Assembly: GCA_021296345.1 (NCBI GenBank)
Contig: JAGWAN010000018.1
Coordinates: 1-38,547 of the forward strand
Reading direction: 5' to 3'
Length of the DNA: 38,547 nucleotides
From: Acidimicrobiia bacterium
Lineage (GTDB): Bacteria > Actinomycetota > Acidimicrobiia > Spongiisociales > Spongiisociaceae
Shown: positions 12,327 through 36,500 of the stretch, piece by piece
Layout: each line of letters begins with the position of its first letter
Numbering within the stretch: the first letter of the stretch is position 1
Translations under genes and position numbers: made by a program
The notes under the pieces: generated by a model
Databases searched by the model: none
Seen by the model: the letters and a program-made list of their open reading frames with translations, nothing else
Told to the model about the DNA's origin: nothing

Positions 12327-13382
12327 ATGACCGGTAGGCGGGTGGGCATGTGTTTTCTGGACCGGCCCGATCCGCGCCGGCAGGTGGCGCTTACCCTACG
12401 GATGGAGGAACTGGGATACGACTCGGTGTGGGTGTGCGAGACACGCACCGCCCGCGATGCGATCTCGGTACTGGGCGCCATCGCCCACACGACCAGCACC
12501 ATCAAGCTCGGAACCGGAGTGGTCAACTCGTGGACCCGCCCGGCCTCTCTGATGGCGCTCACCTTCGCCACCCTTGACGAACTGGCCCCCGGCCGGATGC
12601 TGCTGGGGATCGGCGCCTACTGGGACCCCCTGGCGTGGAAGCAGGGGATCGACCGGCGCAAGCCTGTCAAGCAGATGCGCGAGTACGTCGAGGTCACCCG
12701 CCGGCTGCTGGCGCTCGAAACGGTGACCTACGAAGGCGAGCTGGTGGCGGTGCGCGACCTCCGCCTGGACCTGGGACATGGTGTGGCCCGCGCGCCGAAG
12801 CGAGTACCTATATACATCGGTGCCACAGGCCCGCAGATGCTGGCGGTGTCCGGTGAGTTGGCCGACGGTGTGATGCTCAACGGTTTCACGTCCCTCACCT
12901 ACCTGGCGGACGCTCTCCGGCACATCGAACGGGGCGCTCGGCGGAGCGGCCGGCGGGTGGACGACCTCGACCTCCCCCAGACCATCGTGATCGCCATGGA
13001 CGAGGACGAGGAGAAGGCGCTGGACGTGGCCACCAGGATGACGACCATGTACCTGGGCCAGCAGCCCCACATCGCCCTGGCCAGCGGCGTCGACCAGGAC
13101 CTTCTGGACCGTGTCCGGCACGCCATGGGAGGCTGGCCACCAAGGGACGGAGGAGTCGAGACCGCGATGCCCCTGGTACCGGTACCGGTGGTCCGATCCC
13201 TCACCGCGGCCGGCACTCCGGAGCAGTGCATCGAGCAGGCAGCCGCCTACTCGGTCCGGCCCAACATCTACCCGGCGCTGCTCCCGATCACGGAGAACTA
13301 CGACGAGATCATCGAGGTGTTCTCCCCGGGACGAGAACCCGGTGGCTCGTCCCGTGGCGCTCCCACATCGCCGGTGTCCTGA
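12327..13382 (+). CDS. LLM class flavin-dependent oxidoreductase (luciferase-like, possibly F420-dependent)
   Basis: 351 aa, luciferase-like monooxygenase TIM barrel. The layout resembles the methylene-tetrahydromethanopterin reductase/F420 branch: RMEELGYDSVWVCE, then IKLGTGVVNSWTRPASL, PGRMLLGIGAYW and MREYVEVTRRLL, with IYIGATGPQMLAVSGELADGVML towards the C-terminus. Either FMNH2 or F420 could be the cofactor. It is divergent from the aminotransferase and is followed 7 bp later by the esterase gene. The substrate is unknown. Confidence 0.87.
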   Translation: MTGRRVGMCFLDRPDPRRQVALTLRMEELGYDSVWVCETRTARDAISVLGAIAHTTSTIKLGTGVVNSWTRPASLMALTFATLDELAPGRMLLGIGAYWDPLAWKQGIDRRKPVKQMREYVEVTRRLLALETVTYEGELVAVRDLRLDLGHGVARAPKRVPIYIGATGPQMLAVSGELADGVMLNGFTSLTYLADALRHIERGARRSGRRVDDLDLPQTIVIAMDEDEEKALDVATRMTTMYLGQQPHIALASGVDQDLLDRVRHAMGGWPPRDGGVETAMPLVPVPVVRSLTAAGTPEQCIEQAAAYSVRPNIYPALLPITENYDEIIEVFSPGREPGGSSRGAPTSPVS

Positions 13383-18327: not shown

Positions 18328-20703
18328 CTAGCCGCCGGCTTGGTCTATCAGCGACCACAGGCGGCTCGGCGTGACCGGCGTCTGGTCCACCTCGACTCCG
18401 AGGTGCGACAGCGCGTCAGCCACCGCGTTGGCCAGCGCCGGTGCGGCCGGGAAGCATCCCGCCTCACCCATGCCCTTGAAACCGCCCTCGGTATGCGGGG
18501 AGGGGGTGACCAGATGATGGATCTCGAAGTCAGGCAGATCCGTGAAGGACGGCACCAGGTAGTCCATGAGGGTCGACGACAGAAGCTGTCCGGTCTCCTC
18601 GTCATACACGAACTCCTCCAGCATCGCGCCCCCAAGCCCGTTGGAAAGAGCCCCTTGGATCTGGCCCTCCACCAGGAGCGGGTTGATGATCGTCCCGGCG
18701 TCGTCCACCACCACGTACTTGACCCAGTCGATCTTGCCGGTGTCGATGTCCACGTCCACCACGGCCACATGGGTCCCGCAGGCGGTCGTGAAGTTGGCCG
18801 GGTCGTAGACGTAGGTCGCTTCGAGGGTCGGTTGCTCTCCTTCCGGCAACTTGTGTGCCCAATAGGCCTGCTGTGCCACGTCAGCCAGGGTGAGAGACCG
18901 CATCTCCTCGGCGCCCTTCACCGATATCCGGCCGTCGGCATAGGCGACGTCGTCCGGATCCGCTTCCAGGAGCCCGGCGCCGATCCGCACCGCTTTGGCC
19001 TTGATCTCCTCGATGGCCTTGATGACCGCCACCGCCGCCACGTTGGAACGGCTCCCCGCGGACCCGAAACCCGTATAGGGGGTCTGGTCGGTATCGCCCC
19101 AGACGACCCGCACGTTGGCGATGTCGATTTCCAGCTGGTCGGCGGCCACCTGGGCAAGCGTGGTCTCGGTGCCCTGACCCATCGGGATCATCCCCGTGTA
19201 CAGGGTGGCCCTGCCATGGGGGTCGATCTTGACGGTCGAGCCCTCGTAGCCGCCGGTGTAGTAGTCGAGGATGCCGAGGATGGCCGAGGGGCCGAAGCCG
19301 GACACGTGGATGTAGGAGGCGATGCCGATCCCGCGGTACACACCCTGCTCCCGCAGGCTCTGCTGCTCCTCCCGCACCTTGTCGTACTCGACCGCCTCGA
19401 GGGCCTTGGCCAGCGCAGCCGGGTAGTTCCCGCTGTCGTAGACGGCGCCGCCAGGGCTGAAGTAAGGGAACTCATCGGCCTGGATCATGTTGCGGCGACG
19501 CAACTCGGCAGGGTCGATCCCCAGCCTGCGCGCCGTCTTGTCCATCATCCGCTCGATGCCGAACATGGCCTCCGGGCCTCCGAAGCCGCGGAAGGTGCTG
19601 TTCGGAGTCTTGTTGGTGGCCACCCCCACCACGTCGCAGTGGTAGTTGGCGATCTTGTACTGGTTGACCGCGGCGGCGCCCGTCACCCAGGCGGGCCCGA
19701 TGCCCACGCTATGCAGGTGGGCGCCCTGGTCGCTCAGCACCCGGCCCTTGAGGCCGAGGACCGTCCCGTCGGAGCTTGCCGCGAGTTGCCACTCCTGGAG
19801 CTGCTCGCGCCCGTGCACCGTGGCCTGAAGCGCCTCCCGGCGATCCTCGATCCACTTGACCGGCCGGCCCAGCTTCATCGACGCCAGCGAGACGAGGATG
19901 TCCTCGGGGTAGCGGTCCCATTGATTGCCGAACGCGCCACCGATGTTGGGAGTGAGGATCCGGACCGACGTCTCGGGGATACCGAGAGCCGCGGCCAACT
20001 CCGTGCGGAGCAGGCTGGCCACCTGGCTCCCGGAGTGAAGGGTGAGCGTCTGGCGCAGATCGTCCCACTCGGCTACGAGACCGCGCGTCTCCAGCGCCAC
20101 GCCCGAGTAGCGACCCACCTTGAACCGTCCGGAGACGATCTCGTCAGCCTCCTCGAAGGCGCCGTCGATGTCACCGGCCACACCGAGGGCGTTGATCCCC
20201 GGAAAGGTGTACTCGATGATGGTGTTGTCGCCTAGGTCCTCGTTGATCACCGGTGCGCCGTCGGCCAGGGCAGCCTCCACGTCGACCACATGGTCGAGGA
20301 TCTCGTAGTCCACGTCCAGCAGGTCGAGGGCGTCCTCGGCCATATAGCGCGAATCGGCCACCACCGCGGCGACCGGCTCGCCGACGTAGCGCGCCTTGCC
20401 GGGGGCGAGGGCGGGGGTGTTGGACTCCTTCTGGCCCGGCAGGCGCCAGATGGTGGGGAAGTCCCCGATGCCCTCAAGGTCAGCAGCTGTCAGCACGCAA
20501 TAGACGCCGTCCAGTGCCTCCGCCGCGGCCGTATCGATACCGTTGATGCGGGCGTGGGCGTACGGGCTGCGGAGGATGGCCATGTGGACCGTCCCGGCCG
20601 GCTCGATGTCGGCAATGTAGCGACCCCGGCCCCGGATCAGCGGAGCATCCTCCCGGCGGGGCGCGGAGACCCCGATCCAGCGGGTTTCCTGGGTGGTGGT
20701 CAT
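18328..20703 (-). CDS. Molybdenum hydroxylase large subunit (xanthine dehydrogenase/CoxL family)
   Basis: 791 aa, the Mo-MCD-binding subunit. It has RGRGRYIADI near the N-terminus, the Mo-cofactor segment PNIGGAFGN (252-260), FRGFGGPEA (371-379) and the catalytic Glu747 in GMGEAG. The motif at 371-379 is not the form I CO dehydrogenase loop (AYxCSFR) nor the form II loop (AYRGAGR). It reads like the FRGFGGP loop of xanthine dehydrogenases, so I do not call it CO dehydrogenase. The enzyme probably hydroxylates a heterocycle or aldehyde; the substrate is unknown. The ATG overlaps the small-subunit stop (ATGA). The MoxR/VWA maturation pair at 7.9-9.9 kb may serve it. Confidence 0.9.
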   Translation of the reverse strand: MTTTQETRWIGVSAPRREDAPLIRGRGRYIADIEPAGTVHMAILRSPYAHARINGIDTAAAEALDGVYCVLTAADLEGIGDFPTIWRLPGQKESNTPALAPGKARYVGEPVAAVVADSRYMAEDALDLLDVDYEILDHVVDVEAALADGAPVINEDLGDNTIIEYTFPGINALGVAGDIDGAFEEADEIVSGRFKVGRYSGVALETRGLVAEWDDLRQTLTLHSGSQVASLLRTELAAALGIPETSVRILTPNIGGAFGNQWDRYPEDILVSLASMKLGRPVKWIEDRREALQATVHGREQLQEWQLAASSDGTVLGLKGRVLSDQGAHLHSVGIGPAWVTGAAAVNQYKIANYHCDVVGVATNKTPNSTFRGFGGPEAMFGIERMMDKTARRLGIDPAELRRRNMIQADEFPYFSPGGAVYDSGNYPAALAKALEAVEYDKVREEQQSLREQGVYRGIGIASYIHVSGFGPSAILGILDYYTGGYEGSTVKIDPHGRATLYTGMIPMGQGTETTLAQVAADQLEIDIANVRVVWGDTDQTPYTGFGSAGSRSNVAAVAVIKAIEEIKAKAVRIGAGLLEADPDDVAYADGRISVKGAEEMRSLTLADVAQQAYWAHKLPEGEQPTLEATYVYDPANFTTACGTHVAVVDVDIDTGKIDWVKYVVVDDAGTIINPLLVEGQIQGALSNGLGGAMLEEFVYDEETGQLLSSTLMDYLVPSFTDLPDFEIHHLVTPSPHTEGGFKGMGEAGCFPAAPALANAVADALSHLGVEVDQTPVTPSRLWSLIDQAGG

Positions 20704-21191
20704 GCGCTCCCCCCTTCCGTGGACATGATGGCGGCTGCCGCCTGGACCGACTCTACGATCTTCTGGTATCCGGTACATCGGCAGATGTTGCCGCCCATCT
20801 CTTCCCGTATCTCCTGCGGACTCGGATCCGGGTTCCGTGATACCACGTCGATCCCGGCCAGGATCATCCCCGGCGTGCAGAAGCCGCACTGCAGGCCGTG
20901 GTACTCGGAGAATGCCCGTTGCATCGGGTGGAGATCGTCACCCGCGCCGATGCCCTCGATGGTGGTTATCTCCGCGCCTCCCGCCTGTACGGCCAACATC
21001 AGGCAGGATCGGACCACCTCGCCGTCCATCAGGACCGTGCAGGCCCCGCACACCCCGTGCTCGCACCCGAGGTGGGTCCCGGTCAGGCCCAGATCCTCAC
21101 GTATGGCATCCGCCAGTGTCTTGCGTGGCTCGACCGAGACCGATCGGCCGGCGCCGTTGACGTTGAGTACGACGCTCATCGTTTCAGCCAT
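20700..21191 (-). CDS. Molybdenum hydroxylase [2Fe-2S] subunit
   Basis: 163 aa. Two clusters are fully ligated: Cys43, Cys48, Cys51 and Cys63 (plant-ferredoxin type) and Cys102, Cys105, Cys137 and Cys139 (CGFCTPG, CRCTGY) in the helical domain next to the molybdenum site. It passes electrons from molybdenum to the FAD subunit. The ATG at 21191 has AGGAGGCGG upstream and overlaps the FAD-subunit stop by 8 nt (ATGGCTGA), so all three subunits are translationally coupled. Confidence 0.93.
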   Translation of the reverse strand: MAETMSVVLNVNGAGRSVSVEPRKTLADAIREDLGLTGTHLGCEHGVCGACTVLMDGEVVRSCLMLAVQAGGAEITTIEGIGAGDDLHPMQRAFSEYHGLQCGFCTPGMILAGIDVVSRNPDPSPQEIREEMGGNICRCTGYQKIVESVQAAAAIMSTEGGSA

Positions 21192-22056
21192 TTCCGCCTC
21201 CTGAATTGCCGGCCGCATCCTGCAAAGCCCGTACCGTCAGCACGTTGATCAGATGACTCCTGTAATCGGCCGTTCCGTGAACATCCGAGGTCGAGGGAAA
21301 GTCCGCAGCCGCCCCGGCGCCGGCCGCCGCGAACGCCGCATCGCCCGTCTCGGCCCCCACCAGAGCGGCCTCCGCCGTGGGTAACCGGGTGGCATGGGTG
21401 CCTCCGAAAGCTGCCAGAGCCGCTTGCGTGATGGTTGACCCGTCGGTCGTGATCACCGCCGCCACCCCGGCCAGCGCGAAGTCGCCATGCCTGCGGGCGA
21501 ATTCCCGGAATCCGAAACTGCTTCCCGCTGCTGCCGCCGGAATCCGGATCTCGGTCAGCAACTCCGTGTCGCCCAGAGTGGTCTCGAACAGGCGATCCTC
21601 GATGAGTTCCTGCATCCCAACGACCCGCTCACCATCCGCCGACCGGGCAGTGACCTCGGCGTCGAGAGCCATCAGCACCGCCGGAAGTTCCGCCGCCGGA
21701 TCGTTGTGGGCCAGCGAGCCGCCGATAGTGCCCCGGTTGCGGATCGCCCGGTGGCCGATCTGGGCGACGGCCGCGGGGATGATCGGATGAGCCCTCGCCA
21801 CGTCCCCCGACTCGCCGAGCGCGGTCAGGCGGGTCATGGAACCGATCCGCAACGCCCCGTTGGCCGAGATGTACGACAGCTCGTCGACCCCGTTGACGTC
21901 GATCAGGTGGGCCGGCCTCGCCAACCTGAAGTTGAGCATCGGGACGAGGCTCTGGCCACCTGCCAGGACTTTCGCCCCCGATCCGTGTTCAGCCAGGAGA
22001 TCGACGGTCTCCGCGATGCTCTCCGGCGCCGAGTAATCAAAGACCGCTGGTTTCAT
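21184..22056 (-). CDS. Molybdenum hydroxylase FAD-binding medium subunit
   Basis: 290 aa. The FAD pyrophosphate motifs AGGQS (32-36) and TIGGSLAHNDPAAE (near residue 110) are intact. This subunit passes electrons from the 2Fe-2S centres to an acceptor. It is the first gene of the M-S-L operon. The start follows a near-perfect AGGAGGTGA. A candidate -10 (TATGAT on the minus strand, 22119-22124) with a weak -35 at 22142-22147 lies upstream, within the 5' end of the divergent transporter frame, which suggests that frame's annotated start is too far upstream. Confidence 0.92.
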   Translation of the reverse strand: MKPAVFDYSAPESIAETVDLLAEHGSGAKVLAGGQSLVPMLNFRLARPAHLIDVNGVDELSYISANGALRIGSMTRLTALGESGDVARAHPIIPAAVAQIGHRAIRNRGTIGGSLAHNDPAAELPAVLMALDAEVTARSADGERVVGMQELIEDRLFETTLGDTELLTEIRIPAAAAGSSFGFREFARRHGDFALAGVAAVITTDGSTITQAALAAFGGTHATRLPTAEAALVGAETGDAAFAAAGAGAAADFPSTSDVHGTADYRSHLINVLTVRALQDAAGNSGGGNG

Positions 22057-22100
22057 AAGCGGTTCACCTCCTGCGTGAACGGCGCTCGCCAGAACGCCGC

Positions 22101-24518
22101 TTGTCCGTCCCCGTCAGGATCATAGACAGCAAGGCCGGGTCGAAGCCGGGCGATTCGCACCCAAATCCCGGTGCCGGTTGGGACTCGCCGGACGGAGGCC
22201 CGGTCGTATCCCCGCGGACCCGCCTGGACCACCTGACCACCCTGGTCGCAGCACCTGAGGAAGGCGGCCCATACGTCTGTGCCGGGTACCGCTCTGACTA
22301 TGATCGGCCGCACCCGGTCTTCGACCGCCGACCACCGCCGAGACTGGGAAAGTGGGTTCGTATTCGCCTCGTCGTCGCTCTGGTAACAGTCACCGGGCTG
22401 ATCCTCGGCCTGGCCGCGTGCGGAGCGGATGAAGGGGCACCGGCCACACCCGACAAAGCGGCGACCGGCGCCTCTTTCGCGGGAACGATAAGGATTGGGG
22501 CAGCCCTAAGCGAGACCGGCAAGTTCGCTGTGGAGGGACGTGACTCGCGCCAGGGCTACGACACCTGGGTGAGGTGGGCGAACGAGGAGTACGGGGGCAT
22601 CGAGATCGACGGCCGCCGGTACGCCGCCGAGATCGTCTACTACGACGACGAGTCCGACGCCGATACGGCGGCCAACCTCGTGCAGAAGCTGATCGACGAC
22701 GACGGCGTCGAGTTCCTGCTCGGTCCTTACTCGAGCGGTCTCACCACCGGCGCCAGCGCCATCGCCGAGGCCAACAACGTCATCATGGTGGAGGGAAACG
22801 GGACCTCCGACACCATGTTCGAGCGCGGCTTCCGCAACCTCTTCCTGGTGGCCACCATCGCCAGCGACTACACGAAGTCCGCCATCGAGATCCTGGCTGC
22901 CCAGGGTGCTCGCACCGCGGTCATCGCCTACGAGGACACGTCCTTCCCGACCGCGGTCGCCGACGGGGCCAGGAGGCACTTGGAAGCCGCCGGGATCGAG
23001 GTCCTGTCTACGGAGACCTACCCCAGGGACATCCAGGACGCGTCGGCCATCATGACGAAGTTCCGCGACCTCGACCCCGACGTTTTCGTGGGAGGCGGCC
23101 ACTACAACGACGCGGTGCTGTTCGTCAACGCCGCCAAGGAACTCGGGTTCGCTCCCGACGGGATGCTCATCACGGTGGGGCCGTCCAATCCCAAGCTGAT
23201 CGACGAACTCGGCGAGGATGTGGACGGTGTGCTGGGCCCCACCCAGTGGGAACCGGTGATGGCCTACGAGGGTCCGTACTTCGGTAGCGCGTCGGACTAC
23301 GCTGCCTACTACGAGAGCCTTTGGGGAGAGCCACCTGTTTACCAGGCGGCCAGCGCCACGGCGGCTGCCCTCGCCCTCCACCTGGCCATAGAAACCGCCG
23401 GGACCACCGACACCGACGCGGTTCGCGAGGCCCTCTACGGGCTGGAGGCCGACACGTTCTACGGTCCCATCTCGTTCGACGAGCGCGGTGTCAACACCTC
23501 CAAGCCGATGGGCACTGTCCAGGTCCAGGATGGGCAGATCCGGGTGGTGGCGCCGGACGCCGCGGCGGTAGCGGGCCTGGTATACCCGCTGGCCGGTGCG
23601 AGCGGTAGCGGGAAGGTCTCCGCCGCCGAGCGGGTGGCGCAGATGCTGATCAACGGTATCGCCCTGGGCGGCATGTACACCCTCCTCGTGCTGGGGTTCT
23701 CGATCATCTGGGGGGTGATGGGCGTCATCAACTTCGCCCACGGCGAGTTCGTCATGATCGGCGCCTACATGGCCTGGCTCGCCAACGACCTCTGGGGCGT
23801 GGACCCGTTCGTGACCGTACCCCTGGTGTTCCTGGTGATGATGTTGCTGGGCTTCGGGATGCAACGGCTGCTGGTCAACCGGGTGATCGATCGGCCCCAT
23901 CTCGTCTCGCTGCTGGTGATGTTCGCGGTGGCGATCATCCTGCAGAACGTCATGAAGGTGGTGTTCTCGGCCGACTTCCGGCGCGCCGACACCGTGCTCG
24001 ACGGCGTCTGGCGGGTAGCGGGTGAGGTGACGGTGCCCGTCACCCGTTTCTGGATCCTGGTGGTGGCGCTGGCCGTCGCGAGCGGCCTCAGCCTGTTCCT
24101 GTCGCGCTCCAGGCTCGGTAAGAGCATCCGTGCGGCAGCCCAGAACCGGGAAGCGGCGCGGATCGTCGGCATCGATGTCGCCAAGGCCTACGCTGTCACG
24201 TTCGCCATCTGCATCGGCATCACCGGCGTGGCCGGCGCGCTCGTGAGCCCGGTGCTGGCGGTTCAACCCTTCCAGGGCCCGCCCCTCACGCTCAAGGCGT
24301 TCGCCATCACCGCCATGGCGGGCCTCGGTTCGGTCAGGGGCGCCCTGGGCGGCGCGATGGTGCTCGGCCTCGTCGAGGCCGGGTTGGCCGTCTACATCCC
24401 CCAGATCGGCACCAACCTTGCGGTGGTGGCCTCGTTCGTGCTCCTGGTGGTGGCGCTGGTGGTGCGACCACAGGGTCTCTTCAAGGGGCTCCGGCCCGTC
24501 GACGCGACCGCGACATGA
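22101..24518 (+). CDS. Fused solute-binding lipoprotein and LivH-type permease of a HAAT ABC importer
   Basis: One uninterrupted frame of 805 codons. Residues about 86-107 form a lipoprotein signal ending LAAC (Cys107); about 128-500 is a Leu/Ile/Val-binding-protein domain (TIRIGAALSETGKFA, then YYDDESDADTAANLVQKLI); about 513-805 is a LivH permease beginning MLINGIALGGMYTLL, with NFAHGEFVMIGAYMAW and the cytoplasmic loop RAAAQNREAARIVGID. No stop or frame change separates the parts; the linker is about 15 residues. The binding domain would be exported and held beside the pore. The start is uncertain: the only standard in-frame start before the signal is the TTG at 22101, which adds about 85 residues without homology. 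A CTG at 22343 would fit the signal peptide better. Genes for LivM, LivG and LivF follow. Confidence 0.85.
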   Translation: MSVPVRIIDSKAGSKPGDSHPNPGAGWDSPDGGPVVSPRTRLDHLTTLVAAPEEGGPYVCAGYRSDYDRPHPVFDRRPPPRLGKWVRIRLVVALVTVTGLILGLAACGADEGAPATPDKAATGASFAGTIRIGAALSETGKFAVEGRDSRQGYDTWVRWANEEYGGIEIDGRRYAAEIVYYDDESDADTAANLVQKLIDDDGVEFLLGPYSSGLTTGASAIAEANNVIMVEGNGTSDTMFERGFRNLFLVATIASDYTKSAIEILAAQGARTAVIAYEDTSFPTAVADGARRHLEAAGIEVLSTETYPRDIQDASAIMTKFRDLDPDVFVGGGHYNDAVLFVNAAKELGFAPDGMLITVGPSNPKLIDELGEDVDGVLGPTQWEPVMAYEGPYFGSASDYAAYYESLWGEPPVYQAASATAAALALHLAIETAGTTDTDAVREALYGLEADTFYGPISFDERGVNTSKPMGTVQVQDGQIRVVAPDAAAVAGLVYPLAGASGSGKVSAAERVAQMLINGIALGGMYTLLVLGFSIIWGVMGVINFAHGEFVMIGAYMAWLANDLWGVDPFVTVPLVFLVMMLLGFGMQRLLVNRVIDRPHLVSLLVMFAVAIILQNVMKVVFSADFRRADTVLDGVWRVAGEVTVPVTRFWILVVALAVASGLSLFLSRSRLGKSIRAAAQNREAARIVGIDVAKAYAVTFAICIGITGVAGALVSPVLAVQPFQGPPLTLKAFAITAMAGLGSVRGALGGAMVLGLVEAGLAVYIPQIGTNLAVVASFVLLVVALVVRPQGLFKGLRPVDATAT

Positions 24519-24579: not shown

Positions 24580-25635
24580 ATGAAGTCCGCGGCCTCCGGC
24601 GAGCCTCGCTCCGGTGCCCGCCTGGCGGATTCCCGGCGCCGGCGGGTTCTCGTCAGGGTCTCGGTCGGGTTGCTGGCCATGCTCGCGTTACTGCCCGCCC
24701 TGCCCGGTGTCAGCAACTCGACGCTGTTCACCCTCACCCTGATGCTCACTTCGGTCGCCGTGGCGGTGAACTGGAACCTCACCGGAGGGTTCACCGGCTA
24801 CGTCGACTTCGGCCATGCGGTCTGGTTCGGGATCGGGGCCTACACCACGGCGATCCTGATGTCGCTCCAGACCAACGGGCCGCAGGTCGGCTGGGCCGCA
24901 CCTCCCGCCATCATCCTGGGTGCTGTGGTCGCCGGAGTCCTGGCCGCGGCCATCGGCAGGGCGACCATGCGTCTGAAGGGGCCCTACTTCTCCATCGCCC
25001 TGCTGGGGACCTTCGTGGCCGTGCGGGAGATCGTGCGCGTGTCCGGAGGGCTCACCGGGGGCGGGGTGGGACTGACGCTGCCTCCCTACCTCAACCGGCC
25101 GCTCTTCTACTACCTCGAGCTGGCGCTCGTAGCCGGCTTGGTCGCCTTCACCTGGTGGCTGCGGAGCACGCGCTTCGGCGCCGCCCTGGTGGCCATCCGG
25201 GAGGACGAGGTGGGGGCGGAGATGCGCGGGATCAACACCACGCGTCTCAAGGTGACCGTGTTCAGCTTCGCCGGATTCTCCACCGGGTTGTTCGGGGGAC
25301 TATGGGCCTACCAGAACACTTTCGTGGACCCCGACATCGCCTTCGTTGAGGTCAGAACCGTCGACGCGGTGATGGGCGCCATGCTGGGCGGCCTCGGCAC
25401 CGTGGCCGGACCGGTCGTGGGAACCGTGGTGCTGTTCTGGCTGCGCGAGCTGCTGTGGGCCCACCTTCTCGACTACCACCTCATCGCGCAGGGGCTGCTC
25501 CTGATCGTGATAGTCCTGTTCCTCCCGAGGGGCCTGGTCGGGATCGTCGACCCGCGCGGCACGTCGGTCACCGCCCTGTGGCGGCGGTGGACCGGGCGAG
25601 GCGCCCGCCCGGATGAGCAGGGGAAGGAACCATGA
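24580..25635 (+). CDS. livM: Branched-chain amino acid-type ABC transporter permease (LivM family)
   Basis: 351 aa with about eight to nine hydrophobic segments. The LivM signature is present: NLTGGFTGYVDFGHAVWFGIGAY near the first helices, the loop STRFGAALVAIREDEVGAEMRGIN that contacts the ATPases, and MLGGLGTVAGPVVG near the C-terminus. It pairs with the permease half of the upstream fusion to form the channel. The ATG at 24580 follows a GGGGGAT stretch; the stop overlaps the next start (ATGA). Confidence 0.9.
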   Translation: MKSAASGEPRSGARLADSRRRRVLVRVSVGLLAMLALLPALPGVSNSTLFTLTLMLTSVAVAVNWNLTGGFTGYVDFGHAVWFGIGAYTTAILMSLQTNGPQVGWAAPPAIILGAVVAGVLAAAIGRATMRLKGPYFSIALLGTFVAVREIVRVSGGLTGGGVGLTLPPYLNRPLFYYLELALVAGLVAFTWWLRSTRFGAALVAIREDEVGAEMRGINTTRLKVTVFSFAGFSTGLFGGLWAYQNTFVDPDIAFVEVRTVDAVMGAMLGGLGTVAGPVVGTVVLFWLRELLWAHLLDYHLIAQGLLLIVIVLFLPRGLVGIVDPRGTSVTALWRRWTGRGARPDEQGKEP

Positions 25636-26378
25636 CCGCGTTGCTGGATGCCCGCGGGGTGCTGAAGCGGTTCGGTGGTCTTACCGCAGTGGACGGAGTG
25701 GACATCGATATCAGCGCCGGCGAGATGGTGGGTCTCATCGGTCCCAACGGCAGCGGGAAGACGACCCTCTTCGACTGCCTGAGCCGGGTGTCGAGCCTCG
25801 ACTCGGGTTCGATCAGGTTCGACGGTGTCGACATCACCCGGCACAGGCCCCATCAGGTGGCCCGGCTCGGGCTGGCACGCACTTTCCAGCTGATCAGGGT
25901 GTACCGCGATCTGACCGTCTCGGAGAACATGGAGTTGAGCATCCAGTGGGGACGGGTCGGAACGGCTCGCCTGTTCGGCCGCACGGATCCGTCAACCCGC
26001 CGGAGGGTGGAGTCCCTGCTGGAGTTCCTGCTACTCACCCGTCTCCGGGACGAACGCGCCGGCGCGCTGTCGGGCGGCCAGCGCCGTCTCCTCGAGATCG
26101 GGATGGCCCTGATGAGCGAGCCGAGGCTGGTGCTGCTGGACGAGGCCACCTCGGGAGTCAATCCCACCCTCGTCGCCGAGATCGCCGACCGGCTGAGGGA
26201 GGTCAACGCGAGCGGCGTGGCCATCCTGCTCGTGGAGCACAACGTGCGGTTCGTGGCCGAGTTGTGCCACAGGGTCGTGGTGCTGGACCGCGGCGCCAAG
26301 TTGGCCGAGGGCACGCCGCGCCAGGTCATGGAGAATCCGGCCGTGATCGAGGCCTACTTCGGGGCGGAGGGGGAATAG
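25632..26378 (+). CDS. livG: HAAT-family ABC transporter ATP-binding protein (LivG)
   Basis: 248 aa. Walker A GPNGSGKT (37-44), Q-loop region LARTFQLIRV, signature LSGGQRRLLEI, Walker B LVLLDEA and switch His in VEHNVRFV. The Walker B ends in TSGVNP where LivG proteins usually have AGLNP. It energises the importer together with the next gene. The start overlaps the LivM stop by 4 nt and the stop overlaps the LivF GTG by one base, so the transporter operon is tightly packed. Confidence 0.93.
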   Translation: MTALLDARGVLKRFGGLTAVDGVDIDISAGEMVGLIGPNGSGKTTLFDCLSRVSSLDSGSIRFDGVDITRHRPHQVARLGLARTFQLIRVYRDLTVSENMELSIQWGRVGTARLFGRTDPSTRRRVESLLEFLLLTRLRDERAGALSGGQRRLLEIGMALMSEPRLVLLDEATSGVNPTLVAEIADRLREVNASGVAILLVEHNVRFVAELCHRVVVLDRGAKLAEGTPRQVMENPAVIEAYFGAEGE

Positions 26379-27133
26379 TGGTGGAGACCACCACGGAACG
26401 CCCGCTGCTCGAGGTCCTGGACATGAGCGCCGGCTACTACGCCGGTCACGACGTCGTCCACCACATCAACCTCGAGGTGGCCGAGGGAGAGATCGTCTGC
26501 GTCATCGGACCCAACGGTGCGGGGAAGTCCACGGTGTTCAGGGCGATCTACGGCTTGGCCGAGGTGCGCTCCGGACAGGTGCTGTGCGACGGCGTGGACA
26601 TCACCAACATCGCCCCCCAGGAGGCCTTGCGCACCGCGCGCATGGCGATAGTGCCGCAACTCCGCAGCGTCTTCCCGCAGATGACGGTCCACGAGAACCT
26701 GGAACTCGGAATGTACCTGGAACCCGACAAGGCGCGGGTACGCGAGAGGATCGACTACATCTACGGCCTCTTCCCGCGCCTCGCCCGGCGCGCCCGGCAG
26801 GATGCCGGAACGATGTCGGGTGGGGAGCAGCGCATGCTCGAGATCGGCCGCTCCCTGATGCACGAGCCCCGCATCGTCCTTATGGACGAACCCTCGGCGG
26901 GGCTGGCGCCGATCATCACCCGCCAGGTGTTCGAGGCCATCCGGCAGTTGAACCACGAGATCGGCCTGACGGTGCTGATGATCGAGCAGAACGCTCGCCA
27001 GGGACTAGAGGCCAGCGACCGGGGCTACGTGCTGGAGGTGGGCCGCAACAGCTACCAGGGATCGGCGAGGGAACTGCTGGCCGACCCAGAGGTACGGAGA
27101 GCCTTTCTGGGAGTGCGCCGAGCCTCCCGATGA
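26378..27133 (+). CDS. livF: HAAT-family ABC transporter ATP-binding protein (LivF)
   Basis: 251 aa from the GTG at 26378 (a second GTG follows at once). Walker A GPNGAGKS (44-51), Q-loop MAIVPQLRSVFP, signature MSGGEQRMLEIGRSL, Walker B IVLMDEPSAGLAP and switch-region IEQNARQGLEASDRGYVLEVG are typical LivF. It forms the second ATPase of the heterodimer. It is the last gene of the importer operon. The next gene runs in the opposite direction after 55 bp, with no strong terminator visible. Confidence 0.93.
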   Translation: MVETTTERPLLEVLDMSAGYYAGHDVVHHINLEVAEGEIVCVIGPNGAGKSTVFRAIYGLAEVRSGQVLCDGVDITNIAPQEALRTARMAIVPQLRSVFPQMTVHENLELGMYLEPDKARVRERIDYIYGLFPRLARRARQDAGTMSGGEQRMLEIGRSLMHEPRIVLMDEPSAGLAPIITRQVFEAIRQLNHEIGLTVLMIEQNARQGLEASDRGYVLEVGRNSYQGSARELLADPEVRRAFLGVRRASR

Positions 27134-28021: not shown

Positions 28022-29347
28022 ATGGCTGCCACGGCACTGGTAGGTGGAAGGGTGATCGACGGCACCGGAAGGGCGCCGATCGACGATGCGGTGGTGCTCA
28101 TCGACGGGGAGCGAATCGATGCCGTGTTCCGCAGGGGCGACATGGAGGTTCCCTCCGGCGCCGAAGTGGTGGACACATCCGGCTCTACGGTGATGCCCGG
28201 CCTGATCGACTGCCACGTCCACGTGGGGGTGCTGGCCGATAACTCGTTTCTGCAGGTGGAGGACCCGGCCTTCCTGGCCGACCAGTTCATGACCACCCTG
28301 CTCAGCCACGGGGTGACGACCGTACGGGACACCGGCAACTTCAACCCTGACGAGGTGTTCCGGACCTTCAAGGAGGGCCGGGACGGCTGGCCCCGCTTCT
28401 TCGGCGCCGGGACGATCCTGGACGGACCCGCCGATCCTCCCGCACCGTGGCGGTGGCTGGCCATTATCGACGACGAGACCTCAGCCCGCGAGGAGACGGC
28501 GCGGCTGGTGGATGCCGGGATGGACTTCATCAAGGTGTACGTGTGGGCCCGGCTCCCGGTGCTGCGGGCGGTGGTCTCCGAAGCCCACCGCCGGGGGGCG
28601 CGGGTCGCCGCCCACGTGGGGCACATGATCACCGTAGAGGAAGCCGTAAAGGTTGGTGTCGACGCCCTCGAGCATGTGCGAGTGGGCCGTGAGTTGGTCC
28701 CCGAGGAGCACCAGGCGGAGCTGGCAGCCCTGCCCGGGCGGATCCTGGACCCCCTGGTCGGCTTCCAGCCGTGGCGTTTCATCGACCCGGAGTCGGACCT
28801 GGCCGACGGCCTGATCGCTCTGATGGCCGAGCGGGGCACCTTCGTCACGCCCACCCTGACGCTGTCCCAGAGCATCCTCGCCGGGAATGCCCCGGCCGGT
28901 ACGTGCCCCTCCGGGCTCGACGAGATGCCGGAGGCGGTCACGGACCAGTGGAACCAGTACGCCTACCCGTTCGACTACAGCGAGACGGACTGGGAGGCGG
29001 CCCCGGTGGAGCTGCGAAACCAGATGGCGTTCATCGGCCGTGCCCAGCGGGGCGGAGTGAACGTGACGGCGGGAACGGACCTCACCAACCCGTTCGTCGT
29101 TCCGGGCCACAGCATGCACGAGGAGTTGCGCCTGCTGGTCGACGGGTGCGGGTTCTCGCCCATGGAGGCGATCGTGGCCGGAACCGGCCGGGCCGCCGAG
29201 TTGCTCGGCCAAGCCGACGAGCTGGGTACGGTCGAGAAGCGCAAGCTGGCCGACCTGGTGGTACTCGACGGCGACCCCCTCGAGGACATCGGCAACACCA
29301 GGCGGATCTCGGCGGTCTACAAGGGCGGCCGGTTGGCCTCCGCCTGA
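28022..29347 (+). CDS. Metal-dependent amidohydrolase (imidazolonepropionase-like)
   Basis: 441 aa. The composite-domain N-terminus leads to MPGLIDCHVHVG (His65, His67), a metal-bridging Lys in FIKVYVW, His in RVAAHVGH and LEHVRV, and the final Asp in TAGTDLTNP; the C-terminal KLADLVVLDGDPLEDI is usual. It hydrolyses an amide or related C-N or C-O bond in a cyclic or dipeptide-like compound; the substrate is unknown. AAGGGCGGGAAG precedes the ATG. The 206-bp divergent gap upstream holds a small TAGATCTA palindrome (27961-27968) but no promoter I can assign. Confidence 0.9.
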   Translation: MAATALVGGRVIDGTGRAPIDDAVVLIDGERIDAVFRRGDMEVPSGAEVVDTSGSTVMPGLIDCHVHVGVLADNSFLQVEDPAFLADQFMTTLLSHGVTTVRDTGNFNPDEVFRTFKEGRDGWPRFFGAGTILDGPADPPAPWRWLAIIDDETSAREETARLVDAGMDFIKVYVWARLPVLRAVVSEAHRRGARVAAHVGHMITVEEAVKVGVDALEHVRVGRELVPEEHQAELAALPGRILDPLVGFQPWRFIDPESDLADGLIALMAERGTFVTPTLTLSQSILAGNAPAGTCPSGLDEMPEAVTDQWNQYAYPFDYSETDWEAAPVELRNQMAFIGRAQRGGVNVTAGTDLTNPFVVPGHSMHEELRLLVDGCGFSPMEAIVAGTGRAAELLGQADELGTVEKRKLADLVVLDGDPLEDIGNTRRISAVYKGGRLASA

Positions 29348-30228: not shown

Positions 30229-31215
30229 TCATCCCGCCAGCTCGGGCAGGACCTCATCCGTGACGCGCCGGAACTGGGTCGCCTCGTCGTACCCCACCAA
30301 CCTGAGGGTGATGGTCGTCGCCCCGGCATCCACGAAGCCTCGGATCTGCTCGATGCACCGCCCGGGATCGCCTACCGCCACCCACCGGTCCAGGAAGGCT
30401 CGGTCGTAGTCCACGCCGTAGTAGGCCTTAAGGTAGGAGGCCACCTCTTCCATACCCCGCTCCCGGTCCTCGGTCACGTGGATGTTGTAGTAGAGGCAGG
30501 CCTCGAAGCTCTCTTCGAGGGGGCGGCCCTCCTCGTCCGCATACCGTCGGATGGCCGCCAGGTTGGTGGCGAGGCTCTGCGGAGTGTTGGCGGTGGTCAT
30601 CCAGCCGTCCCCCATCCGGGCCACCCGCCGCAGGGCCCGCTCGGACAGCTTCGGGAAGGCAGGGTTGGGGTTGGCGGTCACCCAGATCGGCAGGGGTTGC
30701 TGGACAGGGCGAGGCAGCACGGTCACGTTCTCGAACCGGTTGTAGGTCCCCTCGTAGGAGGCGTTCCCGGTCTCGGAGACGAGGCGCAGGACTTCGATCG
30801 CCTCCTCCATCCGGCGGCTCCTCGTTCCCGGATCGATACCGAAGGCGGCGAACTCCTCCTCGAACTTGCCGCCCCCCGCCTCCCGCTGGCCCTGGCATGC
30901 CACGAAGATGGACCGGCCGCCGGACAGGCAGTCGAAGCTGAGCCACTGGTAGGCGAGCAGCAGCGCGTCCCGGAGAGGCATGCTGGCCATGCAACCGACC
31001 CCGAGGCGGACCCGGTCGGTGCGAGCCGCCAGCGCTCCGAGCGCCACGAGGGCGTCGAGGCGGGGCTTGGCGAATATCGAGTCCCCGAGCCAGACCGAAT
31101 CCCACCTCCCGGAGCGGTCCGCCTCCGTAGCCAGGTCAAGCATCTCGGAGACGGTGGACATCCCCAGTAGCACGCTTCGGTTCGACAGCGTGAGGCCGTA
31201 CTTGGCCCGGGTCAT
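30229..31215 (-). CDS. LLM class flavin-dependent oxidoreductase
   Basis: 328 aa, the second luciferase-like monooxygenase in the window and clearly different from the one at 12.3 kb. It has YGLTLSNRSVLLG, WDSVWLGDSIFAKPRLDALVALGALAA as the barrel core, VRLGVGCMASMPLRDALLLA, and PLPIWVTANPN with a later ARMGDGWM. FMN or F420 is the probable cofactor. GAGAGGAGAACGG precedes the ATG. The upstream region contains the copy-2 repeat element. It is followed by the glyoxalase-like gene. Confidence 0.87.
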   Translation of the reverse strand: MTRAKYGLTLSNRSVLLGMSTVSEMLDLATEADRSGRWDSVWLGDSIFAKPRLDALVALGALAARTDRVRLGVGCMASMPLRDALLLAYQWLSFDCLSGGRSIFVACQGQREAGGGKFEEEFAAFGIDPGTRSRRMEEAIEVLRLVSETGNASYEGTYNRFENVTVLPRPVQQPLPIWVTANPNPAFPKLSERALRRVARMGDGWMTTANTPQSLATNLAAIRRYADEEGRPLEESFEACLYYNIHVTEDRERGMEEVASYLKAYYGVDYDRAFLDRWVAVGDPGRCIEQIRGFVDAGATTITLRLVGYDEATQFRRVTDEVLPELAG

Positions 31216-31555: not shown

Positions 31556-32200
31556 ATGACCGCAAGCATCTTGACGGCAGCGCCCGATGGGCCGCAGGCG
31601 CCTGCAGATGCCGCCGGCCTGCCGGTGTATCCAGGACGGGTGATCGGTTTGGAAGGCCCCACAGGATTGGGACTGACCCGGATCGGCCTTTCCATGCTGT
31701 CGGCGACCTCGGCGTCCTGCCGGGTGGTGGTGGACGCTCGGGGATGGCTATGCCCGCTGGCGGCATGGGAGGTTGGCATCGATCCCGACCATCTGACGGT
31801 GGTGCGGTGCAGCGACGCCTATCGATGGCCCAGAGTGCTGGCCGTCCTGCTTGACGGGGTAAAAGCGATCTACTCCGAGGTTCCCCGCGGTGTCGAGGAA
31901 GCCCTGCTACGGCGGCTCGGCGCCAAGGCCCGGGCCCGTAATGCCACCGTGATCCTGCGTCCTCTGGCAGGCAGGGTCCCCTCCGGAATGGCTTTTCTGC
32001 GGCTACGGGCGGTCCGGGTCGAGTGGGTCGGCGCACGGGAGGGACACGGCAGCCTGGGCAGGCGCACCCTGGTGGTCGAGCTGTCCGGCAAGGGAGCTGC
32101 AGGTAGGTATCAGGAGGTGGAGGTGGAGGACGATGGCGCGCGTCCTGTGCGTGTGGTTTCCCGATTGGTTACTCCGCAGGTCGGACGCTCCGTCGGATAG
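31556..32200 (+). CDS. imuA: ImuA'-like SOS mutagenesis protein (RecA-like, degenerate P-loop)
   Basis: 214 aa. It is a RecA-fold relative: GRVIGLEGPTGLGLTRIGL occupies the Walker A position but the Lys-Thr pair is replaced by Leu-Thr, so ATP binding is doubtful. Actinobacterial ImuA' proteins are accessory factors that help ImuB and DnaE2 carry out damage-induced mutagenesis. The ATG at 31556 follows GGGGAG; earlier in-frame codons would lie inside the LexA box or the upstream repeat element. It overlaps imuB by 68 nt. The assignment rests mostly on context and weak fold cues. Confidence 0.78.
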   Translation: MTASILTAAPDGPQAPADAAGLPVYPGRVIGLEGPTGLGLTRIGLSMLSATSASCRVVVDARGWLCPLAAWEVGIDPDHLTVVRCSDAYRWPRVLAVLLDGVKAIYSEVPRGVEEALLRRLGAKARARNATVILRPLAGRVPSGMAFLRLRAVRVEWVGAREGHGSLGRRTLVVELSGKGAAGRYQEVEVEDDGARPVRVVSRLVTPQVGRSVG

Positions 32201-33599
32201 GGCGGTCTTCGTTGCGGGGAGCCGGGACGGCCGTCCCCTGGTGGCGGCCGCCAACGATCGGGCGATAAAAGCGGGAATCGAGGTCGGCATGACCCGCCGA
32301 TCGGCTGAAGCCCTCTGCCCTTCGGCCCTGGTCCTGGCGCGCGACCCCGCCGCCGAAGCCACCCGTTTCGAGCCGATCCTCAACGCTATCGAGGATCTGA
32401 TACCCCGGGTGGAGGTGGTCGAGCCGGGCTGGGTGTTCGTTCCTATCGACGGGGCGGTCCGCTATTACGGCGGCGAGCGCGCTCTGGTGGACCGGATAGC
32501 CGCAACGGTGGACCGCTTGGCTCCAGGAGGGCATTTCGGAGTGGCGAATGGTCCGTTCGCTGCCTACTGGGCGGCCCGATCGGGCCGCCCGACGCTGATC
32601 GTGAAGGATGAAAAGGCGTTCCTGTCCGGCCTGGACATCTCCGCTCTGGAAATCGATGAGCTGGTCGCCACGTTTCGCTGGCTGGGGGTGACCACCCTGG
32701 GTGAACTGGCGGCCCTGCCCCGCCATGCGGTGTCCTCCCGGTTCGGTACCCGAGGCTTGGAGGCCCATCGTCTGGCAGGCGGCGAGGATCGGACGGTCCT
32801 GCCGCGCCGGATCCCTGACGATCTGACCGTAGAGGCCGTCTTCGAAGAACCTCTGATGCTGATCGAGCAGGTGGGTTTCATGACCCGCCGCCAGGCCGGG
32901 AACCTCATGGCCTTGCTGGACCGGCATCGGGTCGCCCCCTACCAGGTGGAGGTGGAAGCCGAGGCCGCCGACGGGGTGATCCGGTCACGAGTGTGGCGCA
33001 GTGCCGAGCCGTTCGATACCCGGGCGCTGGCTGAACGGGTGTGGTGGCAACTCCGGGCCTGGATCGAGACCGGAGGGATCACGGATGGGCTGTTCCGTCT
33101 GAAGCTGTCTCCCACCGCCCTGTCCGACCAGGGCTACCAGCCGGGACTGTTCGAGCAGAGGGAAGTCCGGATCGATACCGAACGAGCGCTGGAACAGACC
33201 CGGACCATCCTGGGTCCCGACTCGGTTCTCCGGGCCCGCCCCCAAGGCGGAAGGGATCCGGCGGAGCGGGTGCAGTGGGCCCGATGGGGCGAGGACTTTG
33301 CCGAGCCGACCCGTTCTCTCGCCTCACCATGGCCCGGAAGGGTTCCGGCGCCTTCCCCCAGCCTGGTTCCACCCCGTCCCCGGCGTCTGGAGGTGGAATG
33401 GGATGCCGAGGTTCCCACTCGGGTGCGCCTCTCCACCCGATGGGAGCCGGTGCTGGCATGGGCAGGTCCGTGGCGGAGACTGGGCAAGTGGTGGGCCGAG
33501 GAGAAACCGAGCGCCCTGTACCAGATCGTCACCTCGGCCGGCGCGATGCTATGCCGGACGACCGACGGCCAGACTTTCGTGGTGGGCGTCTATGACTGA
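32133..33599 (+). CDS. imuB: ImuB, catalytically inactive Y-family polymerase homologue
   Basis: 488 aa. Y-family palm, fingers and little-finger layout, but the polymerase carboxylates are missing: the DxDxFF position reads VWFPDW (7-12) and the S-I-D-E position reads PIDG (104-107). QPGLF (336-340) resembles a beta-clamp binding motif. In the mycobacterial system ImuB is the hub that joins DnaE2, ImuA' and the clamp. The ATG at 32133 has GGTGGAGG upstream and lies within the end of imuA'. The stop overlaps the dnaE2 start (ATGACTGA). Confidence 0.93.
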   Translation: MARVLCVWFPDWLLRRSDAPSDRAVFVAGSRDGRPLVAAANDRAIKAGIEVGMTRRSAEALCPSALVLARDPAAEATRFEPILNAIEDLIPRVEVVEPGWVFVPIDGAVRYYGGERALVDRIAATVDRLAPGGHFGVANGPFAAYWAARSGRPTLIVKDEKAFLSGLDISALEIDELVATFRWLGVTTLGELAALPRHAVSSRFGTRGLEAHRLAGGEDRTVLPRRIPDDLTVEAVFEEPLMLIEQVGFMTRRQAGNLMALLDRHRVAPYQVEVEAEAADGVIRSRVWRSAEPFDTRALAERVWWQLRAWIETGGITDGLFRLKLSPTALSDQGYQPGLFEQREVRIDTERALEQTRTILGPDSVLRARPQGGRDPAERVQWARWGEDFAEPTRSLASPWPGRVPAPSPSLVPPRPRRLEVEWDAEVPTRVRLSTRWEPVLAWAGPWRRLGKWWAEEKPSALYQIVTSAGAMLCRTTDGQTFVVGVYD

Positions 33600-36500
33600 G
33601 CACCGCTACGCCGAGATGCATGCCCATTCCAACTTCTCGTTCCTGGACGGTGCTTCACATCCCGAGGCCTTGGTGAAGCGAGCCGCCGAGCTCGGCTACG
33701 AGGCGTTGGCCGTCACCGATCACGACGGTTTCTACGGATTGGTGCGGTTCTGGCAGGCGGCCCGGCAGGCCGGCTTGCCGGCCGTATACGGGGTGGAGCT
33801 TTCGCTATCCCCCCCGGACTACGTGCCCGACGGCGATGAGGGGTCGGTCTCACCCTTCGATAGAGCCGGCCTGCAAGATGCCCGCCGCTGGGAGGCCGGG
33901 AAGCAGGGACGGAAGCGGGTCGGGCGGAGGTACCGCACCCGGACGGGCGCCGGGTTCGAGCCGGAGCACCTGGTGGTGCTGGCCTCGTCGCCCGAGGGAT
34001 ACGCCCGGCTTGCCAACCTGGTCTCCAGAGCGCAATTGCGGGGCGCCAAGGGCCGTCCTCTATACCGGTGGAAGGACCTGGCCGAGGCGGCCGGCCGAGG
34101 AGACCTGGTGGCGCTGAGCGGATGCCGGCAGGGAGCGGTCCCCCGCGCTGTCCGGCAAGGGGATCGGGAAGCGGCTCTGAGGGAGGCTTCCCGCCTGCGG
34201 GAAGCCTTCGGGCAACGTTTCCACATCGAGATCTGGGATCACCGGATGCCGCAGGACGACCGGCGCAACGACCTGTTGTGGGAAGTGGCCAACAGGTTGA
34301 ACCTGCCGGTGGTGGCCACCAACAACGTCCATTATGCCGACCGCCGGGACGCCGACCTATCCGACGTCCTGGCGGCGATCGGAGGGCGGCGGCCGCTCAC
34401 CGAACACAATGGCTTCCGGCCCGACACCGATGAGCGCTACCTGAAATCACCGGCGGAGATGGCCGCACGCTTCCGGGCCTATCCGGGAGCGGTGGAACGG
34501 GCCGCCCACCTGGGACGGGAGCTTGCTTTCGATCTGCAGCTGGTGGCCCCCCGATTGCCCGACTTCCCGCTTCCGGACGGCTTCGCCACCGAGATGGACT
34601 ACCTGCGCCGTCTCACTTTTCGAGGGGCTCGCAAGGCCTATCCCGCCTCCGGGCGGACCGGAGTGATCGACCGGAAAGCGGTCGACCGGCTGGAACACGA
34701 GCTGGACATCATCGAGCGGTTGGGCTTCCCGGGCTACTTCCTAGTTGTGTGGGACATCGTCAACTTCGCTCGATCCCAGGACATCCTGTGCCAGATCCGT
34801 GGTTCCGGAGCCGATTCGGCGGTGTGTCGATGCTTGGGCCTCACTCGGGTCGATCCCCTCCGGCTGGGGCTGCCGTTCGAACGGTTCCTGTCCGAAGAGC
34901 GGGACCGGCCTCCCGACATCGACCTGGACCTCGAATCGGAACGCCGGGAGGAGGTGATCCAGTACTGCTACCGACGGTACGGGCGGGAGCGGGCGGCCAT
35001 GGTCGCCAACGTGATCACCTACCGGGCCCGGTCGGTGCTGCGGGACGTGGCCAAGACCTTCGGTTTCACCTCGGCTCAGACCGATGGCTTGACCAGGTAC
35101 GTGGACACCCACTCCCCGGCGGAACTGCCACTCGAGGAGCCCCTGCCGGCCGGGCTGACCGCCGATCTGGTCTATGACATCTGCCGGCGCCTCGACGGGT
35201 TCCCCAGGCATCTGGGTATCCATTCGGGCGGCATGGTGATAGCCGACCGGCCCCTTTGGAAGGTGGTTCCGATCGAATGGGGGCGCATGGAGGACCGCAC
35301 CGTCCTGCAGTGGGATAAGGACGACTGCGCCGCCATAGGGATCGTCAAGTTCGACCTGCTGGGACTGGGCATGCTGAACGCTCTGCATATGATGGTGGAC
35401 ACCGTGGAGGAAGCCCATGGGCGACGGATCGACCTGGCCGACCTTCCTCAGGAGCCGGCCATCTACGAGATGCTCACCAACGCCGATACCGTGGGCCTTT
35501 TCCAGGTGGAGTCACGGGCGCAGATGGCGACCCTGCCCAGGCTGAAACCCGCCACCTTCTACGACCTGGCTGTAGAGGTGGCATTGATCCGTCCCGGCCC
35601 TATCCAGGGCGCTTCCGTCCACCCCTATCTGCGCCGGCGAAACGGGGAAGAGCCGGTGCGGTATCCCCATCCGCTGGCCGAGCCGATCCTGAAGCGCACT
35701 CTGGGAGTGCCGGTGTTCCAGGAGCAGTTGATGGAACTGGCCCGGGTGTGCGCCGGTTTCGACGGAGGGCAGTCGGATCGACTCCGAGCCGCCATGACCC
35801 ACAAGCGGTCGGACGAGGCGATGGAGAGGCTACGAGTGGAGGTTTTCGAGGGGATGCGGACCAGGGGCGTGACCGGCGCTGCCGCCGATGAGATCTGGGA
35901 GATACTGCAGGGGTTCGCCTCGTTCGGTTTCCCGGAAAGCCACTCGGTGTCGTTCGCCTACATCGTCTACATGTCGGCCTGGTTGCGCTACCACTACCCC
36001 GCCGAGTTCCTGGTCGGGTTGCTCAACGCCCAGCCGATGGGTTTCTACTCCCCCAACAGCCTGGTGCAGGACGCTATCCGTCACGGAGTGGTCGTCCTCG
36101 GTCCGGACGTGAACCTCTCGCTGGAGGAGTGCACCATCGAGCCCTATCCGTGTGACGAGGACGATATCGTGGAGCACTACGGCATGGTCTGGCGCCGGGG
36201 GCGAGGCCCGGTGGATGACCCGATCCGGGCATCGGTAGCGGCCCGGCTGGGCCTGGCGTGCGTGCGAAATCTGGGGGAGGCCCAAGCTCGGAGGATCCTG
36301 GCGGCCCGCCAGGTAGGCGGAAGATTCAATGACCTGTCCGACTTCGCCCACCGTACCGGTTTGCCGGTGGATGCCACGGAGGGACTGGCCGTCGCCGGAG
36401 CCTTCCGATCGTTCGGGGTTTCCACCCGTCAAGGTCTGTGGATGGCAGGCGCCTTAGCCGGTACCGGACCCGAACAGTTGCCGCTGGTGCCCGATCTGGA

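Follow-up and report, generated by a model that had tools for sequence, protein, structure and literature searches.

Can the receptor and the LivH-type permease of a LIV-type (HAAT) ABC importer be made as a single protein, and if so, how many receptors would the transporter carry? The question is raised by a locus in a 38,547-nucleotide stretch of a draft genome of an Acidimicrobiia bacterium (the whole stretch is hereafter called the window). An earlier note, made from the letters of the DNA alone, had described one frame at 22101-24518 that runs from a lipobox through a receptor domain into a LivH-type permease. Here we examine the gene and its operon, its occurrence among relatives and beyond, its probable origin and the kind of importer that it would encode.

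Results

One frame holds a complete receptor and a complete permease

The region from 22101 to 24518 on the forward strand is one open frame of 805 amino acids. Pfam places Peripla_BP_6 at residues 129-478 of this frame (profile positions 1-342 of 343, E 4.8e-57) and BPD_transp_2 at residues 515-786 (profile positions 1-269 of 269, E 7e-36), and the receptor and LivH-type permease domains are thus both complete within it. The profile matches and the open frame agree with the earlier description of a complete Peripla_BP_6-type domain, preceded by a lipobox, that passes into a complete LivH-type permease with no stop. Five Peripla_BP_6 matches occur in the window's own genome, and the fused gene is the only one in so long a frame.

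The TTG codon at 22101 is an unlikely start for the gene, because its nearest relatives start at the position equivalent to 22362; judged from this comparison, the probable start is ATT 22362, which would give a product of 718 amino acids plus stop (22362..24518, forward strand; stop codon 24516-24518). Among nine loci compared, this position holds ATG in three (L039, L040 and L041) and ATT in six (the window, L010, L012, L015, L037 and L052), the latter being probably an overcount by one, since L012 and L052 share the same junction sequence and presumably represent a single genome. In all nine, GGGAAAG or GGGAG lies 9 bases 5' of the start, with TATGAT further 5'. ATT would be an unusual start codon. 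A promoter and terminator scan of 21900-22480 found nothing.

From this start, the chain would begin with a signal peptide (22362..22421, forward) ending in the putative lipobox LGLAAC, with the Cys codon at 22419-22421; a lipobox-like stretch ending in Cys was present in the fused loci whose N-termini were examined. On the same strand follow the receptor (solute-binding) domain (22476..23555; Pfam match proper 22485-23534), a linker and the permease domain (23637..24515), with nine predicted membrane helices or half-helices.

The operon encodes the remaining parts of a LIV-type importer

Three further forward-strand genes follow the fusion: a LivM-type permease (24580..25635), in which Pfam finds BPD_transp_2 and a receptor domain is absent; a LivG-type ATPase (25632..26378) with ABC_tran and BCA_ABC_TP_C; and a LivF-type ATPase (26372..27133, its exact start being approximate). 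Both ATPases were assigned with Pfam and NCBIfam, although their scores against the LivG and LivF models of NCBIfam fall short of the cut-offs. LivM, LivG and LivF lie in that order 3' of the fusion in the fused loci compared, as far as each locus extends.

The operon therefore holds a Peripla_BP_6-type receptor (PF13458, E value as above), two BPD_transp_2 permeases (PF02653, in the fusion and in the LivM gene) and two ATPases, one of LivG type with BCA_ABC_TP_C and one of LivF type, as a HAAT importer does. The usual, though not strictly defining, trait of a separate receptor polypeptide is replaced by a single open frame, whose encoded product has the receptor and a permease subunit in one covalent chain. 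In NCBIfam, the LivH part matches UrtB and LivH models and the receptor part matches branched-chain and UrtA receptor models, all below their curated cut-offs. Assignment as a urea importer (Urt) is not supported by these scores (UrtB 193.8 against 250.3 bits; UrtA 55.6 against 492.75 bits). On sequence grounds, the operon very probably encodes a LIV/HAAT-type ABC importer with receptor and LivH as one polypeptide, and the reading of the gene as a lipoprotein receptor fused to a HAAT permease stands, with domains, lipobox and partner genes behind it.

Among proteins of solved structure, those closest in sequence to the receptor are SAR11_0655 (8wch), Atu2422 (3ip5), UrtA and leucine-binding proteins; L-pyroglutamate co-purified in the 8wch structure. 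No NCBIfam model exceeded its cut-off for the receptor. Divergent from the operon are three genes of a CO-dehydrogenase/glyceraldehyde-dehydrogenase-like molybdenum hydroxylase (18328-22056, reverse strand), and an amidohydrolase gene (28022-29347) comes after it; among the loci compared, both neighbours occur only in the window's own genus and so say little about the clade. Elsewhere, the window holds a gene for an IMS-family polymerase and, after it, one for a DnaE-type polymerase (32133-36930), a pair that resembles an ImuB-DnaE2 mutagenesis cassette, and two luciferase-like monooxygenases (12327-13382 and 30229-31215 (-)).

The fusion is kept throughout a group of Acidimicrobiia

Matches were found in 24 of 99 genomes searched, 14 of them with both domains in one stop-free frame: nine of the ten genomes of the genus (the window's own included), two of the same family and three of the same order. 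G009, of the same genus, gave no match in this set. A class survey of 395 genomes, which overlaps with the 99, returned 33 matching genomes, comprising 19 fused members of the window's family, one further fusion at 38% identity (G262) and 13 that were unfused in the rows shown. Among the genome_contigs loci, which partly overlap the surveyed genomes as identical junctions show, 26 of 55 were fused, contrary to the possibility that homologues are always split at this point. All 26 are labelled Acidimicrobiia, Acidimicrobiaceae, Candidatus Poriferisocius or just 'bacterium', and many of the source organisms may be sponge-associated, as such isolate names suggest. Relatives at 75-94% identity keep the frame open, so its openness is not due to chance. 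From these comparisons we regard the fusion as genuine and clade-wide in a group of uncultured Acidimicrobiia.

Two loci show additional receptor sequence. L053 (3539-4822) has another receptor copy, immediately 5' of the fusion, with an in-frame stop in its first part. In L120 (3766-6102, reverse strand), a single frame at the end of a contig encodes two receptor domains that are nearly identical, which may be an assembly repeat.

A second receptor-LivH fusion, with 38% identity and both domains confirmed by Pfam, was found in L119 (67-2253); its contig is 3.2 kb long, and the genome shows 8% contamination. No lipobox was seen in its N-terminal region, and in its order one of 58 genomes matched, namely itself, with no fused relative. 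This fusion may be an independent event or lie on a foreign contig. Searches further afield scored two to four candidates per genome at strict E-values, so that unlike fusions could be missed; within that scope, matches were obtained in 8 of 396 genomes of other Actinomycetota besides the window's own, none fused, in 39 of 251 Chloroflexota genomes, with no fusion seen, and, with the L119 protein as query, in 4 of 398 Pseudomonadota genomes, all with a stop inside. The Chloroflexota rows spanning both domains all contained at least one stop, and seven stop-free receptor-only rows that had no separate permease row beside them were all split when their sequences were fetched. A single-piece match on a Bradyrhizobium plasmid (H1) was checked and found to be split; besides H1 there were 108 further plasmid records, and most of the 25 listed hold two separate genes.

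Split sister loci point to a probable loss of a stop codon

A tree was built from the joined receptor and permease parts of 64 rows, for which possession of both parts, not a fusion, was required; same-genome duplicates, partial loci (including L025, L028, L030 and L085) and loci without both parts were left out. The fused rows formed two clades, of 14 and 15 rows, in which every row is open and no member is broken; those Acidimicrobiia rows that are split (L051, L055, L064, L069 and L071) fell outside both. For the origin count, eight distant or long rows (L031, L032 and L086-L091) were dropped; the best tree joins the 29 fused rows in one clade with a single change, but with support of 62/8, so that two origins or a re-split of the fusion may apply instead.

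The split sisters L055 and L064 (permease 77-78% identical) each contain exactly one in-frame TGA, at a position common to both, which is followed 33 bases later by a GTG start. The junction of L071 is out of frame, and the spacers of L051 and L069 are longer. Because two close relatives are split by a single in-frame stop, the simplest origin of the fusion is probably the loss of the receptor stop codon in an ancestor with an in-frame spacer, whereupon the short spacer would have become a linker. The linker of the window corresponds to the receptor C-terminal tail plus the intergenic spacer of the split relatives. With split and fused sisters about 80% identical, the locus would offer a readable case of a two-gene arrangement turning into one protein.

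The linker is probably translated but weakly constrained

If it is taken to begin after the conserved VxAP of the receptor and to stop five residues short of the Asn-Gly in the first permease helix, the linker comprises 27 codons in the window (23556..23636, forward; Ala/Gly/Ser-rich and stop-free) and 27-32 codons across 24 distinct fused loci, which is longer than the about 15 residues first estimated. Its final few codons already lie within the first permease helix as modelled by AF2, a helix that starts at about residue 421 and leaves about 22 residues after VxAP.

In the window clade, substitutions at codon positions 1, 2 and 3 numbered 92, 88 and 230 in the linker and 317, 212 and 1532 in the permease, where the third-position bias is far sharper. 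Codon differences were 178 synonymous and 167 nonsynonymous in the linker, against 1473 and 387 in the permease. Because a third-position bias is present but far below that of the permease, the linker is probably translated and under weak constraint. No in-frame stop occurs in the 686 linker codons of the 24 loci, which is weak evidence given that these loci were selected as fused. The other two frames of this GC-rich DNA have only four stops each, in three and four of the 24 loci. For this reason, linker lengths that differ by whole codons prove little either.

The permease N-terminus is predicted to lie outside

The AF2 model of the permease has a mean pLDDT of 86.5, and that of the full chain a mean pLDDT of 84.9 and a pTM of 0.78. 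Permease residues 164-181, with the conserved basic segment, are taken to be the coupling helices, which in ABC importers face the cytoplasm and would here meet LivG and LivF. Counting back from them in the model, the first helix starts outside, and the C-terminus lies inside if the half-helix 219-233 is counted as crossing. Lys and Arg residues per sequence number 4.6 on the N-terminal side versus 10.9 on the coupling-helix side (n=35, split relatives included); the TM4-5 loop, placed outside, holds 3.8 and runs against the assignment. Helix order in the model and charge bias together support a permease N-terminus that lies outside and would permit the fusion, and neither points to a cytoplasmic N-terminus. 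The orientation given in the earlier note is accordingly supported, but the fusion does not seem to impose it: since the charge count included split relatives, permeases of this family seem to have an outward N-terminus as a rule.

In this family, LivH pairs with LivM. As the LivM protein of the operon has only BPD_transp_2 and no receptor domain, one tethered receptor is expected per LivH-LivM heterodimer, that is, one per whole transporter and not one per permease half as previously suggested.

Discussion

We propose, with a probability of roughly 0.6, that this clade runs an obligate, doubly anchored, single-receptor LIV-type importer with fixed 1:1 stoichiometry, which would be the first HAAT receptor-permease fusion described and would have arisen by a stop loss still readable in the split sisters. 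The signal peptide would export the chain, and the Cys after LGLAA would be lipidated. The receptor would then fold outside, the chain would enter the membrane from outside as the first helix of LivH, LivH would pair with LivM, and LivG and LivF would drive transport. The receptor would be tethered twice by flexible linkers, to lipid at one end and to the permease at the other, and each transporter would have a single copy of it. Delivery to the channel would become intramolecular, with a high effective concentration of receptor and a fixed 1:1 ratio; the cost of the tether would be the loss of the usual receptor excess.

This fixed ratio would not hold if free receptors also dock. In L070 (9607-10977) and L072 (7362-8732), a stand-alone receptor gene directly follows LivF of the fused operon, the two being 79% identical over the receptor, and L122 (3007-4377, reverse strand), which is probably the same record as L072, their contigs being equally long, has the same arrangement. 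Such genes would suit an importer in which the tethered receptor serves its own permease while free paralogues dock too, so that the tether supplies a default receptor and leaves the stoichiometry unfixed. However, no free receptor gene lies beside the window operon, and the genome's four remaining Peripla_BP_6 matches are on other contigs; we consider this reading unlikely.

An obligate fusion would also fail if an internal start (GTG 23634 or ATG 23643) yielded free LivH in addition to the fused chain. The window retains both codons, in frame, near the old LivH start, an in-frame GTG and/or ATG lies near the ancestral start in all eight window-clade loci compared, and an in-frame ATG, GTG or TTG is present no more than 16 codons before the conserved NG in 18 of the 24 fused loci. 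Those 18 loci, however, differ in the codon and its place, and in the other six the 16 codons before NG contain none. The split LivH of L055 starts with a GTG behind GGAG; by eye, the window has no counterpart and no Shine-Dalgarno-like sequence at canonical spacing. Production of two proteins is therefore rated as quite improbable, and the fusion is likely the sole product, although some free LivH may be made.

A third scheme, in which cleavage within the linker, once the chain is inserted, releases a normal lipoprotein receptor and a normal LivH, would be in keeping with the Ala/Gly/Ser-rich, poorly conserved linker, but by eye the 24 linkers have no motif in common and the fusion would then bring no evident gain, which makes such processing very improbable. 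Finally, although the draft genome that contains the window is in 82 contigs, a stop lost or a frame shifted through an error of sequencing or assembly, which the earlier note named as a possible refutation, is ruled out by fused relatives in many other assemblies, which share the open junction and have different linkers.

The single-receptor importer that we favour can be set beside known systems. The LIV-I/HAAT importer (LivJ/K-LivH-LivM-LivG-LivF) and the urea importer UrtABCDE likewise combine, within an operon, a receptor, two permeases and two ATPases of these families, and differ from the window operon in that receptor and LivH form one chain in the latter. By structure, the best Foldseek matches of the LivH model are PsaB (7kyp, E 7.1e-4) and BtuC (1l7v, E 0.046), of the type II importer fold; the likeness is weak (TM-score by query length 0.42-0.51), and the BtuC and PsaB permeases have separate receptors. 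Sequence searches of the PDB returned no credible match to a solved LivH-type permease, so the docking of LIV-type receptors on LivH-LivM is without a direct structural answer there. A natural one-receptor fusion, with receptor and permease kept together in one chain, would make docking, stoichiometry and the question whether one receptor suffices directly accessible to cryo-EM or single-molecule methods.

Receptor-permease fusions exist in other ABC families, those of OpuA and GlnPQ among them. A search of open-licence papers found no such fusion in a HAAT importer, and the present case appears to be new as far as the searched literature goes. The earlier note's mention of fusions elsewhere is borne out for OpuA, in which, as described in PMC11065425, the receptor is covalently linked to the permease subunit, as in the window. 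OpuA, according to the same paper, uses two receptor domains; the window importer would have one, its LivM partner being a different protein without a receptor. Closer in number is a MalE-MalF fusion that, to judge from the title of the study (Licht et al. 2019, cited in PMC9045158), has a single solute-binding domain: like the window fusion, it would place one receptor on one of two unlike permease subunits, and hence one per transporter, but it belongs to a maltose-family importer and not to the HAAT family.
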